Virus record (IMG/VR): IMGVR_UViG_3300036985_001153
Coordinates: 1-33,111 of that record
DNA length: 33,111 nt
Direction: 5' to 3' (one strand)
Source of the DNA: a virus
This document shows positions 4,728 through 13,849 of the stretch, in pieces. The first letter of the stretch is position 1. Each line of letters begins with the position of its first letter. The notes below the pieces were generated by a model. It saw only the letters and a list, made by a program, of their open reading frames with translations, did no database searches and was not told the DNA's origin. A program made the position numbers and the translations under genes.

Positions 4728-5158
4728 GTCCGGATTTCCTCGAAGCTCACTGCGACACGCCCGGCTTGCGCGTACCGCTTGGTGAGACAGAGTTTAACCA
4801 CCTGCTTGTCATCCTCAAACACCACCCCGTTACAACCGTCTAGAATCGCCTTGGCGAGGTTATCGAGGTCGGGGGCTACCGTGGGAAGGGTCTGCCCTAA
4901 ACTCGCCTCCAGCGCCTTCCTGAGCGACCAAGAGGGCGGTATTGGGAGGCTGAACGTCATAACCGCGCTGACTGGCCCCGAAAGCAGCGGTTGACCCCGC
5001 ATTGCTAACTTGGCGGCAAACCCAATCTGGGCTTCGTAACTTCGGGTCTTGGCGTCCGTGAAGTGCCGGACTCCCCGCTTCAGCCGCATGACCCGCGCCC
5101 GGCGCCAAGCCTCAGGGACAATCTCCACGATGAAATCGCACTTCAGCGGCTCAGTCAT
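4724..5158 (-). CDS. rusA: RusA-like Holliday junction resolvase
   Basis: This 144-residue protein matches the RusA family of phage resolvases, which cleave four-way junctions. The metal-binding core is visible: PDLDNLAKAILDGCNGVVFEDD (about 96-117), with D97, D99, N100, K103, D107 and the D116/D117 pair. It would resolve recombination intermediates, or debranch concatemers before packaging, alongside the exonuclease, RecT-like protein and SSB on the opposite strand. The ATG at 5158 overlaps the helicase stop (ATGA), which favours it over the in-frame upstream codon at 5176. It is placed directly before the terminase genes. Confidence 0.93.
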   Translation of the reverse strand: MTEPLKCDFIVEIVPEAWRRARVMRLKRGVRHFTDAKTRSYEAQIGFAAKLAMRGQPLLSGPVSAVMTFSLPIPPSWSLRKALEASLGQTLPTVAPDLDNLAKAILDGCNGVVFEDDKQVVKLCLTKRYAQAGRVAVSFEEIRT

Positions 5159-6090
5159 CGCGGCCTCCCATCGCAAAACGTGATGGGCTTCACCATGTCC
5201 GGGCGGTCATGCACCTGCCCAAAGTCCTTGCGGAAGTAGGCGTGGATTTTTCCGCACCAACCCCCGTGTCGATTTTTCAGAACGTGGACGAGCGAGGACT
5301 TCGCAAAGTCCGTCCCCATGTCGTCCGGGCCACGCCGAACGAAAATGACGTTGTCCGCAATGCCCGCGATTTCCCTCGCGCCGGCCACATCGTTGATGTC
5401 CGGATCGATGTCGCGGCTGATGATTTTGCGCGGGTGAACCACGAGGTGAATGTGGACGCCCGACACCCGAGCCGTAGCTGCAACCGCATTCGCAAACTGC
5501 CGCTGCTTCTCAAAATCATCGTTGGCAACGTCCAAGCACATCAGCGAGTCGATGACGGCCTGCTTCAGCCCTCGCCGTGCCAGCGACCGGATGACCGCAA
5601 GCAGTTCCGTACCCGACGCGCTGCCCACGACGCCCCAGACGTACAACCGTTCCCGCGACCAGTGCAGGAAGTCCCCAAAGGTTTCCTCATGCTCCACCTC
5701 GCGCAGCCCGTTTGCCACCATGCAGAGCCGCAGCAGTAGGTCTTCTGGGTCTTCCTCCAGTGAGGCAAAGAACGTCGGCTCACCACGCCCCGCCATCGCA
5801 ATCGCCATCTGCCGCAACTGCGTGGTCTTGCCCTCGCCCGGATAGCCCGACCAGACCGACACGCCGCCGGGGTACAGCCGCAGATTCGCCCCCGTAGGGT
5901 CAGCCGGTATGGTCTGCCAATCGCTCTGGCGCTTGTGCCAACGGGCAAGGACATCGCTCGGCGACAACTGGCCCACATCCACCAAGCGACGCTCAGGCAT
6001 CGCCTCCAACTCAGCGGACACGCCCGTTACCAACATCCCCGCGAGCGCTGGGTTGCGCTTGGTCGCAAGGTTCACCAGAAAATCGTTCAT
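5155..6090 (-). CDS. Replicative helicase-like RecA/DnaB-fold ATPase
   Basis: This 311-residue protein has a RecA/DnaB-type motor core. Walker A is GYPGEGKTT (82-90), the acidic FASLEED follows at 108-114, Walker B is QAVIDSL (177-183), HLVVHPRK lies at 215-222, and a DnaB-type arginine/tail motif KNRHGGWCGKIHAYF at about 272-286. It resembles the helicase half of T7 gp4 or a short DnaB. There is no N-terminal DnaB domain, only about 75 residues before the motor. It overlaps the upstream primase zinc-domain gene by four bases. Together the pair look like a split version of the T7 primase-helicase lacking the catalytic TOPRIM part. Confidence 0.9.
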   Translation of the reverse strand: MNDFLVNLATKRNPALAGMLVTGVSAELEAMPERRLVDVGQLSPSDVLARWHKRQSDWQTIPADPTGANLRLYPGGVSVWSGYPGEGKTTQLRQMAIAMAGRGEPTFFASLEEDPEDLLLRLCMVANGLREVEHEETFGDFLHWSRERLYVWGVVGSASGTELLAVIRSLARRGLKQAVIDSLMCLDVANDDFEKQRQFANAVAATARVSGVHIHLVVHPRKIISRDIDPDINDVAGAREIAGIADNVIFVRRGPDDMGTDFAKSSLVHVLKNRHGGWCGKIHAYFRKDFGQVHDRPDMVKPITFCDGRPR

Positions 6091-6515
6091 CGCATTGCCC
6101 TTCGTGTTTGTTTCAGGCTGGCAGGTTCATGCCCCAGCAACGTCAGCGCAGCATTGAGCCGCGAGCCGGATTCAATCAACCGTTGACTCGCCTGAGCGTA
6201 GCCCAATTCGGTCGCCAACAGTGCCGCAACCATGATTTCGTGCGTAACGGCTTCCAGCACCTGCATCGCAGGGATTGGCTGCGGACGCGACTCGCCCATG
6301 CGTTCCGGCAAAACGTCAGTCCAGCGCAGCCCCACTGCCCCGAGAACGTCCTCTGCCGCGCACCCCGCGAAACAGTGCAGCAGCAACTTGCCGTCCCGCT
6401 CCGCAACGGACAACGACGGCCCACGGTCATCGTGCGAGGGGCAACTGGCGACCCACCTGTCGCCCCCGGTCTGCCGGACTTTGGACAGCCGCGAGAGAAG
6501 CATTTCGGCGCTCAT
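6087..6515 (-). CDS. Primase zinc-binding domain protein (CHC2-type), no catalytic domain
   Basis: This 142-residue protein has a clear primase-type zinc ribbon: CPSHDDRGPSLSV with C25 and H28, then LLHCFAGC with C48 and C52. In DnaG and T7 gp4 this domain reads the template for primer start sites. Here it stands alone: the remaining ~90 residues are helical and Arg/Ala-rich, and the chain ends before any TOPRIM domain. It may recruit or steer host DnaG, or help the helicase encoded next. The ATG at 6515 overlaps the initiator-like stop (ATGA); an in-frame start further upstream would overlap that gene more deeply. Confidence 0.86.
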   Translation of the reverse strand: MSAEMLLSRLSKVRQTGGDRWVASCPSHDDRGPSLSVAERDGKLLLHCFAGCAAEDVLGAVGLRWTDVLPERMGESRPQPIPAMQVLEAVTHEIMVAALLATELGYAQASQRLIESGSRLNAALTLLGHEPASLKQTRRAMR

Positions 6516-7213
6516 GAGTATTTCTCCATCCACGCCTTGTGTTCAGGGTTCCAAACGCCGTCGATGAGCATTGGAGGCATAGGAGGCTTCGCGCCACCCG
6601 CAGCAGGCTTGACGCCCTTAGGCGCAAACAAACCCTGCCAACTGGACGAGATGGACGAGTCAATCATCGCTTGCTGGGTAGCAGCATCGAAGGGCGCGAG
6701 CAGATTCAGATGCTTCCGAAGTACCGTAACGCTGACCGGAAACTTCCGCTCCCTGCGGAACGACAGCCACTCCTGCCACGCAGGTTGGTTGATGCCAAAG
6801 GGAAGTTCCAAATCCTCAGCCAAAACCCTAGGCGCTCTAGCGCCGTTTTTTTTCTGTTTCTGCCCTTTGTCTCTGTCCTCTCCCTCTCTCTCTGGACAAG
6901 CATCTTGCAAGCACTCTGCTAGCATCATGCTAGCATCCTCAAACATTCCGTTATCAATCAATGGCTTAAGTGCTACGAGCAACTCATTGTCAGTCATCCT
7001 GAGACGGAACGACCAATCAGCCGGAACCCCCTCAATTACGCCCTCGGTGTGTTCGCTTGCTAGCAACCACAGCATGACCGCTAGCGCCTTGCTAGCAACA
7101 GGCAAGCACATGAAGTCACGGTCATCCAGCAAGGTTCTGTAAACCTTTATCCACGGTGGACACCGCTGCTTGTAGTGCTGAAACTTGTCCCAGTTTTTTG
7201 GCCTGAGTGCCAT
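6512..7213 (-). CDS. Replication initiator-like protein (lambda O/DnaT-like position)
   Basis: This 233-residue protein lies directly upstream of the primase and helicase genes. The N-terminal ~100 residues (WIKVYRTLLDDRDFMCLPVASKALAVMLWLLAS and on) resemble the winged-helix start of phage replication proteins. A charged linker rich in Glu, Lys and Arg follows (about 106-125), then a C-terminal part with QPAWQEWLSFRRERK, typical of loader-type replication proteins. Its DNA contains two clusters of 11-bp repeats, a pyrimidine tract and a hairpin, as the lambda origin lies inside gene O. At codons 121-123 an A8 run is followed at once by the hairpin; a -1 slip would add Lys-Arg-Arg and stop. 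The family assignment is inferred from position and weak pattern. Confidence 0.75.
   Translation of the reverse strand: MALRPKNWDKFQHYKQRCPPWIKVYRTLLDDRDFMCLPVASKALAVMLWLLASEHTEGVIEGVPADWSFRLRMTDNELLVALKPLIDNGMFEDASMMLAECLQDACPEREGEDRDKGQKQKKNGARAPRVLAEDLELPFGINQPAWQEWLSFRRERKFPVSVTVLRKHLNLLAPFDAATQQAMIDSSISSSWQGLFAPKGVKPAAGGAKPPMPPMLIDGVWNPEHKAWMEKYS
6831..6853 (+). terminator. Perfect hairpin plus T8: rightward intrinsic terminator inside a leftward gene
   Basis: GGCGCT-CT-AGCGCC (effective 5-bp stem GGCGC/GCGCC with loop TCTA) is followed by G and eight T's at 6846-6853. This is intrinsic-terminator form for plus-strand transcription, yet the gene here is on the minus strand. It could block antisense transcription entering the regulatory region from the left. 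Read on the minus strand it is an A8 run followed immediately by a hairpin, a possible slippage signal. Confidence 0.6.
6896..6939. repeat. Iteron cluster 1: four tandem 11-bp repeats (candidate origin)
   Basis: Four consecutive 11-bp units begin at 6896, 6907, 6918 and 6929: ACAAGCATCTT, GCAAGCACTCT, GCTAGCATCAT, GCTAGCATCCT. An 11-base period is not a multiple of a codon although the repeats lie in the initiator-like gene, so the constraint is on DNA, not protein. They abut a pyrimidine-rich stretch (about 6845-6893) and the hairpin at 6831-6844. This resembles the lambda layout of iterons inside the initiator gene. Confidence 0.72.
7059..7112. repeat. Iteron cluster 2: GCTAGC-core repeats at helical spacing
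   Basis: Repeat units start at 7059 (GCTAGCAACCA), 7080 (GCTAGCGCCTT), 7091 (GCTAGCAACAG) and 7102 (GCAAGCACATG). The first spacing is 21 bases, about two helical turns, and the next two are 11. This cluster also lies within the initiator-like gene and shares the core of cluster 1. Confidence 0.65.
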
Positions 7214-7214
7214 G

Positions 7215-7409
7215 TCAACCTCCTTGGCGCATCGCCTTCAACTCCGCAGTAACTGCCTTGCGCTGCTCGTACTTGCGCTTGGCGTTGTTTCGGTCGCAGA
7301 TAACGCATCCGTTCGATAGGACGTAACGCTCCATCCCGTGTCCATGAACGCAGGGCTTGCCTTCGTAAGTGATACGCCCAGCCTTCGCGGCTTCTGTTCT
7401 GTCTCGCAT
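7215..7409 (-). CDS. Small zinc-finger protein
   Basis: This 64-residue protein has a likely zinc site: CVHGHG (C20, H22, H24), then GCVICDRNNAKRKYEQRK (C35, C38) with a basic helix after it. The pattern resembles the N-terminal zinc part of phage HNH/endonuclease VII-like proteins, but no nuclease residues are evident, so it may only bind nucleic acid. The ATG at 7409 has a strong AAGGAGA ribosome site six bases upstream. It is the first gene after the terminator at 7441-7464 and ends two bases before the initiator-like gene. Its role is unknown. Confidence 0.8.
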   Translation of the reverse strand: MRDRTEAAKAGRITYEGKPCVHGHGMERYVLSNGCVICDRNNAKRKYEQRKAVTAELKAMRQGG

Positions 7410-7440
7410 ATCTGTCTCCTTATCTCAATCTCAACACAGT

Positions 7441-7464
7441 AAAAAATGAAACGCAAGCGCGTTT
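7441..7464 (-). terminator. Intrinsic terminator/attenuator between regulator and replication genes
   Basis: On the minus strand, AAACGC-GCTT-GCGTTT forms a perfect 6-bp stem with a 4-base loop. It is followed by CA and six T's (plus-strand A's at 7441-7446). It lies in the 107-bp gap upstream of the gene at 7409. It could end a short regulator transcript, so that replication and all later genes depend on readthrough or antitermination. Confidence 0.6.
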
Positions 7465-7482
7465 GGTTGTTGTCATCAGATT

Positions 7483-7515
7483 GCTAGCGAAATGCTAGCG
7501 TTTTGCTATCAGCAA
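7483..7515. repeat. Iteron cluster 3: three tandem 11-bp repeats in the intergenic gap
   Basis: Units start at 7483 (GCTAGCGAAAT), 7494 (GCTAGCGTTTT) and 7505 (GCTATCAGCAA). They share the core and the 11-base period of the clusters inside the initiator-like gene, but are non-coding. They may be a second binding array for the initiator, for origin looping or autoregulation. Confidence 0.62.
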
Positions 7516-7516
7516 C

Positions 7517-7768
7517 CTATTCAGGCCAGCGGATGTTTCTTGAAGAAATCATCCCGTCAACTTCCCAAACGTGGTCGTTACTTAGCACTTCATCAAACCA
7601 CTCGCGTAGTTCAATGACCTCTTGCCGGTTCAGGTACACGACGCTGCCGGGGTCTTCGTATTCGCTTCCCTGAATGCCGACAATGTTTTTGAGCGCCACC
7701 ACGCCGTCACGAACGTGAGCGTCTACGCCAGCCCTGTAGGGCGTCCTGATGACTTTTGAGAGGCTCAT
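7517..7768 (-). CDS. Hypothetical early protein
   Basis: This 83-residue protein is not recognised. It is acidic, with a predicted helix near YLNRQEVIELREWFDEVLSNDHVWEVD, and ends ISSRNIRWPE. The ATG at 7768 overlaps the stop of the Cro-like gene by four bases, so the two form a regulator pair transcribed leftward. A terminator and iterons follow its stop. It could be a partner of the regulator, but nothing in the sequence shows this. Confidence 0.75.
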   Translation of the reverse strand: MSLSKVIRTPYRAGVDAHVRDGVVALKNIVGIQGSEYEDPGSVVYLNRQEVIELREWFDEVLSNDHVWEVDGMISSRNIRWPE

Positions 7769-7956
7769 GCCCGCCCCTGATGACGAAACACCGGGCGTTC
7801 GGCAGTCAGTTTTCCGTAGGACGCCTGCTCCAGCAGTAACGCTTGGCGCAGCGGGATCTTGTTCTTCCAGCGGCTCACGGCCTGCTTGCTGATGCCAAGC
7901 AACTTGGCGATTTGAGTTTTCGTGCCGAAAAAGGCAACTGCGTCTTGAGTGTTCAT
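7765..7956 (-). CDS. Cro/YdaS-like helix-turn-helix regulator
   Basis: This 63-residue protein has a helix-turn-helix at residues 14-31 (TQIAKLLGISKQAVSRWK), the size and pattern of Cro/YdaS-type phage repressors. It is first in the leftward operon and faces the divergent promoter region, where a 17-bp inverted repeat (7998-8014) is a natural operator candidate. I chose the ATG at 7956. An in-frame GTG at 8004 would add a poor stretch with three Phe codons from the A9 tract. No ribosome site precedes the ATG; a promoter at 7964-7991 would put the transcript start almost at the ATG, making the message leaderless, as for lambda cI from PRM. Confidence 0.85.
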   Translation of the reverse strand: MNTQDAVAFFGTKTQIAKLLGISKQAVSRWKNKIPLRQALLLEQASYGKLTAERPVFRHQGRA

Positions 7957-7963
7957 GGGCAGG

Positions 7964-7991
7964 ATTGTGGCAGCAAAAAAAAAGTTTGCAA
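7964..7991 (-). promoter_or_regulatory. Candidate leftward promoter
   Basis: On the minus strand, TTGCAA (7991-7986), a 16-base spacer containing T9, then CACAAT (7969-7964). Each box matches 4 of 6 consensus bases. Transcription would begin at about 7957, next to the Cro-like ATG. It is a by-eye candidate only. Confidence 0.35.
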
Positions 7992-7997
7992 CATCAG

Positions 7998-8014
7998 TTG
8001 ACACCCCCAGTCAA
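7998..8014. promoter_or_regulatory. Candidate 17-bp operator (inverted repeat)
   Basis: TTGAC-ACCCCCA-GTCAA is a perfect 5-bp inverted repeat with a 7-base centre. It overlaps the -35 box of the rightward promoter and lies about 40 bp from the Cro-like start. Its size matches lambdoid operators, so it may be the binding site of the regulator at 7765-7956. Confidence 0.45.
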
Positions 8015-8027
8015 TTCGTGGTTTACT
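7998..8027 (+). promoter_or_regulatory. Candidate rightward early promoter
   Basis: A perfect -35 TTGACA at 7998-8003, an 18-base spacer, then TTTACT at 8022-8027 as the -10 (4 of 6). It precedes the first rightward gene at 8072, which has an AAGGAGAG ribosome site. It should drive the early/accessory operon. Confidence 0.6.
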
Positions 8028-8071
8028 TCTTTCCAAGGCGGCAGTGAGCCGCTCCAACGAAGGAGAGCAAC

Positions 8072-8395
8072 ATGAGTCTGATTGCATACGAGTGGGTTCT
8101 GGAAGATGTCGAACTTGAGTTCGAGGACATCGAAGACCTGCACCACTTCGAGACCTACGCCGACCTGCGCCGTCACATCAATCTGTTCCCGGCCCCGGAA
8201 GGCCACCGCTACGACGTTGCCATCACGCGCCGTCGCTACGACAAGCAAGACCCCGAAAGCCTTGCTCGCCTGTCCTACGCCTATCTGGACGAGGACTTTA
8301 AGTTTCCGAGCCACTTTCAGGACGGCGACTTCTGCAAGGTTCCCGCCAAGTTCCAGTGCGACGTAACGGGCTACCGTCTCAAGGTGGGCGCATGA
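8072..8395 (+). CDS. Hypothetical acidic early protein
   Basis: This 107-residue protein is first in the rightward operon, right after the candidate early promoter and a strong AAGGAGAG ribosome site. The N-terminus is very acidic (VLEDVELEFEDIEDL). Later segments are mixed, with RYDVAITRRRYDKQDPESL and a likely strand-rich end. It is not recognised. Its acidity and first-early position suggest a host-takeover or DNA-mimic type of protein, but that is speculation. It overlaps the next gene by four bases (ATGA). Confidence 0.82.
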   Translation: MSLIAYEWVLEDVELEFEDIEDLHHFETYADLRRHINLFPAPEGHRYDVAITRRRYDKQDPESLARLSYAYLDEDFKFPSHFQDGDFCKVPAKFQCDVTGYRLKVGA

Positions 8396-13418: not shown

Positions 13419-13849
13419 GCGACTACCCCGGTTGGCGACCGCGCAACGAAACTTCAGAGGATCTGCGCCACGAAGCGGAAACGGCTGAAGTGCTGCGTTC
13501 CATGTACGGCATCACCGCGAAAAAACTGAGCGAAAATCAGTACTCCTTTGACTGGGCGCTATGCAAGGGCGATGAAGTGCTAGCGTTTGCTGAGTTCAAG
13601 CAGCGGAAAACGAAGTACGACACGCTGCTGCTAAGTTGCTCCAAGTGGGAGCGCGGTATGCGGTACGCGCAGGAATTCAAAAAGCCGTTCGTGCTGTTTG
13701 TCAGGTGGCCTGATGGACTGTGGTCTTTTAAGGCAACTGACGATTTCGTGCCGGAGGTCAAATTAGGTGGCAACAGCCGTGGTCAAAATGGGGACATTGA
13801 GCCATGCGTTCACATCCCGATTGGCTTGTTCAACAAGATTGCCGACTGA
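13415..13849 (+). CDS. PD-(D/E)XK nuclease-like protein
   Basis: This 144-residue protein has a recognisable PD-(D/E)XK arrangement: YSFDWALCKGDEVLAFAEFKQR gives D46 in one strand and E60-x-K62 in the next. A helix (LLSCSKWERGMRYAQEF) and two further strands (PFVLFVRWP, GLWSFKA) follow, as expected for a small restriction-endonuclease fold. It lies in the same operon as the methyltransferase, but it lacks a separate target domain. It could be a DNA-repair/recombination nuclease, a restriction-like enzyme, or an inactive DNA-binding relative. Assignment is by motif only. Confidence 0.65.
   Translation: MSDYPGWRPRNETSEDLRHEAETAEVLRSMYGITAKKLSENQYSFDWALCKGDEVLAFAEFKQRKTKYDTLLLSCSKWERGMRYAQEFKKPFVLFVRWPDGLWSFKATDDFVPEVKLGGNSRGQNGDIEPCVHIPIGLFNKIAD

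Follow-up and report, generated by a model that had tools for sequence, protein, structure and literature searches.

A candidate lambda-type replication origin with 11-bp palindromic iterons inside the initiator gene of a virus and its relatives

Where does replication begin in this virus, and do the short GCTAGC repeats in and upstream of an initiator-like gene mark the site? The window, meaning the whole stretch of DNA that was analysed, is an IMG/VR virus record of 33,111 bp, and is probably a complete genome, given the 127-bp repeat at both of its ends. The early operon is on the minus strand and runs leftwards from 8004, in the order of a P22-type Cro, two small genes, the initiator, a zinc-ribbon protein and a DnaB-like ATPase, and then a terminase and a P22-type portal (Table 1). 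The zinc ribbon is the only part that is matched in the primase-like protein, which lies beside the 311-aa DnaB-like ATPase; it was noticed in passing that the two could be a split or reduced primase-helicase. Cumulative GC skew does have a minimum, at about 10.5 kb rather than at 7 kb and thus about 3.5 kb away. Close to this minimum, at 8-10 kb, genes change their coding strand, so that skew, one of the checks first proposed, is uninformative and cannot locate the origin. A search of Rfam gave nothing, and a plasmid tblastn search gave no match.

Table 1. Features of the candidate origin and of the early operon around it
Feature	Position	Strand	Basis or description
P22-Cro-type repressor, at the upstream end of the early operon	7765..8004	-	PF14549 E=2e-16
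Intergenic iteron array 3, on the upstream side of gene 7215-7409	7482..7511	-	TGATAGCA, CGCTAGCA, CGCTAGCA at 11 bp
Hairpin resembling an intrinsic terminator (AAACGC-GCTT-GCGTTT, followed by CATTTTTTAC), located between array 3 and gene 7215-7409	7449..7464	-	consensus match only
O-like replication initiator gene, 233 aa	6512..7213	-	phrog_26426, phrog_678, AlphaFold2 model
Iteron array 2, inside N-domain codons	7058..7108	-	8-mers 7101-7108 (GCTTGC core), 7090-7097, 7079-7086, 7058-7065; gene offsets 105/116/127/148
Iteron array 1, linker end	6895..6935	-	four 8-mers 11 bp apart: 6928-6935 and 6917-6924, TGCTAGCA; 6906-6913, TGCTTGCA; 6895-6902, TGCTTGTC (weak); gene offsets 278/289/300/311
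GAGA-type purine tract immediately following array 1, a candidate element for unwinding	6845..6893	-	90% pyrimidine on +
Hairpin GGCGC-TAGA-GCGCC after the tract	6831..6844	-	followed on + by GTTTTTTTTC
DnaG-type zinc-ribbon protein of 148 aa, encoded next in the replication operon	6087..6533	-	PF01807 E=1e-5, phrog_6088
DnaB-like helicase/ATPase of 311 aa, the partner that is probably loaded at the origin	5155..6090	-	PF03796 E=1e-6, phrog_239 E=4e-34

The first-pass annotation had counted seven GCTAGC sites in about 0.6 kb and two elsewhere, and this count is exact. Nine sites are present in the window, at 6918, 6929, 7059, 7080, 7091, 7483 and 7494 and, far from these, at 13579 and 20285. 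With 7.3 expected genome-wide, nine sites are not an over-representation; what is unusual is their clustering and 11-bp spacing rather than their overall abundance. Seven sites within 620 bp were found in none of 1000 dinucleotide shuffles. The spacing was also as reported, in that three exact 11-bp GCTAGC pairs start at 6918, 7080 and 7483, and only one shuffle in 1000 contains even one such pair. The degenerate units listed alongside are present as GCAAGC at 6907 and 7102, GCTATC at 7505 and, weakly, ACAAGC at 6896.

Some of these sites encode conserved residues (ASKALA, LAS), as they might if the repeats were a by-product of Ala-Ser and Leu-Ala repeats in the protein, or of chance. Nevertheless, the sites lie in different reading frames, array 3 is noncoding, and the shuffles speak against chance. 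The initiator gene was also recoded synonymously in 20,000 trials that followed the codon usage of the phage, which left 0.32 GCTAGC sites on average as compared to the five observed, a number reached by none of the recodings. Therefore, the in-gene sites are maintained for their DNA sequence, in agreement with the initial proposal that a period that is not codon-sized is a DNA signal. Taken together, the frame, recoding, noncoding-array and shuffle tests refute amino-acid repeats and chance, to which a negligible probability is assigned.

Coding constraint does explain the degenerate units. Each 11-bp step shifts the frame by two, such that every third position would read GC TAG C, a stop. 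Across the 74 genes that hold at least two GCTAGC, this hexamer is in open frames 0 and 2 on 190 and 168 occasions, and necessarily never in the third frame. At stop-frame positions one or two 11-bp steps away, GCTTGC is found most often and GCTATC and GCAAGC are frequent as well, and these differ from the GCTAGC core by one base or so. In the window, positions 6907 and 7102 hold stop-frame variants of this kind, and the degeneracy of the listed units can therefore be attributed to stop-codon avoidance in the third frame.

The protein encoded by the gene has two domains, with an N-domain of residues 1 to about 105, a linker, and a C-domain of about 130-233. Residues 1-123 match phrog_26426, 'replication protein' (E=1e-38), and residues 119-230 match phrog_678, 'replication initiation O-like' (E=1.5e-12), so that the C-domain is of the O-like type. 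In the AlphaFold2 model the N-domain is confident and the linker, residues 100-130, is of low confidence or disordered. Array 1 spans codons 93-106, at the start of this linker, and its iterons are found between the coding regions for the N- and C-domains, as in an origin of the lambda type. A Pfam profile search gave no match to the protein. Phage_rep_O (PF04492) matches lambda O itself but neither the window protein nor its 25 aligned relatives, which places the window initiator outside the lambda O Pfam family. A PDB search by sequence gave nothing credible, a PDB fold search with the N-domain model gave nothing below E=0.001, and a BFVD search gave relatives and weak matches only.

Relatives were obtained by an IMG/VR protein search that yielded 80 loci, picked by protein alone; many are close copies, such that counts of relatives overstate the number of independent events. 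The same arrangement is common to scores of other phages. In the test that the first annotation had named, related phages with the same initiator share the iterons at their gene offsets as well as the purine tract, with the hairpin recurring less regularly. The window belongs to a class that combines the PHROG 26426 N-domain with 11-bp palindromic iterons at offsets of about 116-148 and 278-311. Offsets from the start codon are fixed in the relatives, at 116/127/148, often at 185/196/218, and at 278/289/300/311. The offsets of array 1 are repeated in L006-L025 and L209, and three of the four in array 2 recur. The set at 185/196/218 is a further in-gene array in many relatives (L006, L012, L014, L016) that is absent from the window. 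With up to one mismatch allowed per TGCTAGCA and with the window and its near-identical contig L005 left out, 63 eleven-bp TGCTAGCA pairs are found inside 23 GCTAGC-class initiator genes (4.41/kb), and none in 188 kb outside those genes (91.7 kb upstream and 96.4 kb downstream). By the recoding, frame and pair counts, the iterons are selected as DNA and conserved in relatives, as is characteristic of the lambda type.

The association can also be approached from the DNA. The pattern TGCTAGCA N3 TGCTAGCA alone matched at least 119 viral-contig stretches, and a control palindrome of equal composition and spacing matched 6, a rough comparison given the single control. This N-domain is encoded by 58 of the 80 matched stretches that were fetched, and in 57 the nearest pair is inside its open reading frame. 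Named isolates with GCTAGC iterons are PhiPLPE, Cr-LKS3 and phiV208. A protein scan of Genome_contigs found no relative, and a three-iteron DNA pattern matched four contigs there, none with the N-domain. At two loci, L219 and L220 (MW202462.1 and MW202640.1), the initiator gene is unannotated as such, and other reading frames have been called over or beside it.

The pyrimidine tract of about 48 bases that had been reported beside array 1 is present but not pure. Read along the gene, it is a purine tract that follows the iterons, as in the lambda type, although it is GA-rich where that of lambda is AT-rich. In the GCTAGC class, the best 40 bases of the tract have a median of 90% purine, compared to a 99th percentile of 82% for background. 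Codon choice is skewed as well. Within the tract, Glu is encoded by GAG in 90% of cases versus 48% in the rest of the gene, and Thr by ACA in 94% and ACG in 1%, versus 23% and 24%. Arg is encoded by AGA in 91% of cases versus 16% elsewhere, a difference partly biased by the choice of tract; the tract window was picked by purine content, a bias that is avoided only when GAG is compared with GAA and ACA with ACG. Codon choice in relatives, with AGA, GAG and ACA preferred in the tract, shows that the tract, too, is a DNA signal.

The perfect hairpin described next to the tract is confirmed and reads GGCGC-TCTA-GCGCC on the plus strand. Hairpins of at least 6 bp are found at that place in 46% of GCTAGC-class relatives versus 16% of random windows, a moderate enrichment that is not universal. 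Across positions 6831-6856 of the plus strand, the hairpin is followed by GTTTTTTTTC (T8) and is terminator-like for an antisense RNA inside the initiator gene; the T-run after the origin hairpin is mostly missing in relatives.

Other phages use the same layout with different iteron cores. A GATATC core is found at the same place and period in the named isolates DC33 and PBR31 and in L221-L226 and L292, and a TATATA core in L036-L059. In all of the cores (GCTAGC, GATATC and TATATA) the central TA is retained and the changes around it are symmetric, so that their recognition may be two-fold. The core tracks the N-domain tree, with 7 changes versus 31.2 when shuffled, on a tree of few columns and many weak forks. 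The partner also varies among relatives. PhiPLPE has a DnaC-type loader and Cr-LKS3 a replicative helicase, and the window encodes the zinc-ribbon protein and DnaB-like ATPase. Limnohabitans phage DC33 (L216, PQ492659.1) is filed as Inoviridae, yet it has 39 kb with a tailed-phage-type initiator, and the assignment looks wrong.

Domain swaps separate the contributions of the two ends of the protein. Loci that carry DC33's C-domain with a DUF1376 N-domain, which has no sequence match to the PHROG 26426 N-domain and is unrelated to it, have no GCTAGC. In roughly one half to two thirds of these loci the iteron is instead CGTTCAAC, also with an 11-bp period, at offsets of about 118/129/151 and 330/341, followed by an A-rich tract. 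There are 47 CGTTCAAC pairs in DUF1376-type genes and 0 in 160 kb outside. Given that the DUF1376 swap changes the iteron, it is the N-domain rather than the C-domain that the iteron accompanies, which is what recognition by the N-domain would predict. Proteins with DUF1376 (PF07120) and 11-bp CGTTCAAC iterons at two in-gene places are encoded at L230-L289 (for instance L246:2680-3441, L269, L285 and L286). Because of these in-gene iterons and the A-rich tract that follows, DUF1376 is probably an initiator DNA-binding domain with an in-gene origin. In the Rac prophage of E. coli K-12, ydaU (L293:4120-4977, DUF1376) has a linker with several GTTCAAACA/GTTTGAACA repeats, beyond which come an A-rich stretch and a hairpin formed by a C-run and a G-run; the whole is possibly a remnant of the Rac origin.

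The locus was at first thought to resemble lambda, where O binds iterons in its own gene, and yet to be unlike any known origin. The resemblance is upheld and the second view is not, given that the iterons and the purine or A-rich tract, with the hairpin after them here and less regularly in relatives, come in the same order inside the initiator gene as in lambda. The lambda ori is inside gene O, with iterons, a purine/A-rich tract and an inverted repeat in order (PMC7466680). As in lambda and lambdoid phages, the candidate origin is in the linker between a DNA-binding N-domain and a partner-binding C-domain, and the iterons are inverted repeats. The lambda iterons, however, are about 18-19 bp long with starts 20-24 bp apart, whereas here an 8-bp palindrome recurs every 11 bp, and the window has a second array in the N-domain codons; to these differences can be added the composition of the tract and the unmatched Pfam family. 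The N-domain of gp04 (PHROG 26426) from Iodobacter phage PhiPLPE is 58% identical over 106 residues, and its gene has the GCTAGC iterons, the offsets and the GAGA tract. PhiPLPE differs in that gp04 is followed by a DnaC-type loader rather than by a zinc-ribbon protein and DnaB-like helicase, and in that it lacks the upstream array 3. The words iteron and 'origin of' are absent from the PhiPLPE comparative paper. A literature search, with most subscription journals outside its scope, found no paper joining GCTAGC, iteron and phage and no description of these 11-bp iterons.

Iteron plasmids of the RepE, RepA and pi class offer a second comparison. Their direct-repeat iterons are bound by the initiator beside a strand-opening region, and extra iteron sites can be autoregulatory. 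The iterons are usually outside the rep gene and about 17-22 bp long. The window initiator differs in having no plasmid Rep match in Pfam; Rep-type initiators are among the best PDB fold matches to its N-domain model, at a non-significant E of about 1 that served as a hint only. Several separated arrays in one genome are also a general trait of iteron plasmids, and it is conceivable, but very improbable, that the in-gene arrays are mainly copy-number or incompatibility sites, acting by handcuffing or titration, rather than a start site. Against this, the linker array adjoins a purine tract, a position that fits a site of strand opening; the two roles are compatible.

The extra upstream cluster, array 3, is real and not a product of chance, but it is outside the conserved design, given that among the relatives examined it is found only in L005. 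It sits within an imperfect palindrome at 7465-7517 with 24-nt arms. Array 3 is probably a further initiator-binding site; it is perhaps autoregulatory, and roles in autoregulation, looping or titration are possible. Its position, within the 7215-7409 leader and ahead of the terminator-like hairpin, is the one expected of an autoregulatory site, and autoregulation could select the same kind of site. This position favours an alternative in which the arrays are operators through which the initiator or another regulator controls early-operon transcription, with the origin elsewhere. Against it, the conserved arrays lie well within the gene and an unwinding-type tract follows them, the upstream array is all but unique to this virus, and no consensus promoter was found in 6400-8200. 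This use of the arrays is considered unlikely. Control by the phage repressor/Cro is strongly disfavoured and is rejected, with a probability close to nil. The palindromic sites are near a P22-type Cro gene, but no GCTAGC is found upstream of cro, where its operators belong, and across phages the sites track the initiator N-domain, including in PhiPLPE and phiV208, which have different neighbour genes.

The stretch at 6831-7108 is, with high probability, a replication origin of the lambda type that is embedded in its own initiator gene and combines an N-domain family of its own with compact palindromic iterons of 11-bp period. By analogy with lambda, the N-domain would bind the 8-bp palindromic TGCTAGCA iterons, one helical turn apart, and wrap the DNA. 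Occupation of the linker array would destabilise and open the adjacent GAGA tract, and the C-domain would then recruit the phage DnaB-like helicase for loading, probably with the zinc-ribbon protein. The conserved array 2 in the N-domain codons probably belongs to the same complex.

In a broader sense, origin specificity may reside in one cassette within the initiator gene, consisting of an N-domain, two sets of 11-bp iterons in its own codons that dodge a stop at every third unit, and a purine/A-rich tract, to which C-domains and helicases or loaders are interchangeably joined. At least two N-domains without a sequence match (PHROG 26426 and DUF1376) share the layout, which would imply a convergent or very old common design that underlies many unannotated origins, with an iteron dialect that can be read from the gene; the chances that this generalisation is correct are judged to be even. 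With an origin inside the initiator gene, the origins of scores of uncharacterised phages become predictable from that gene alone, and a function is suggested for the DUF1376 domain. GCTAGC, GATATC, TATATA and CGTTCAAC would provide natural pairs of protein and DNA dialect for working out recognition. With a palindrome at each turn of the helix and degeneracy imposed wherever a unit falls in the stop frame, the design clearly illustrates how one set of codons can serve both a protein and a DNA signal.
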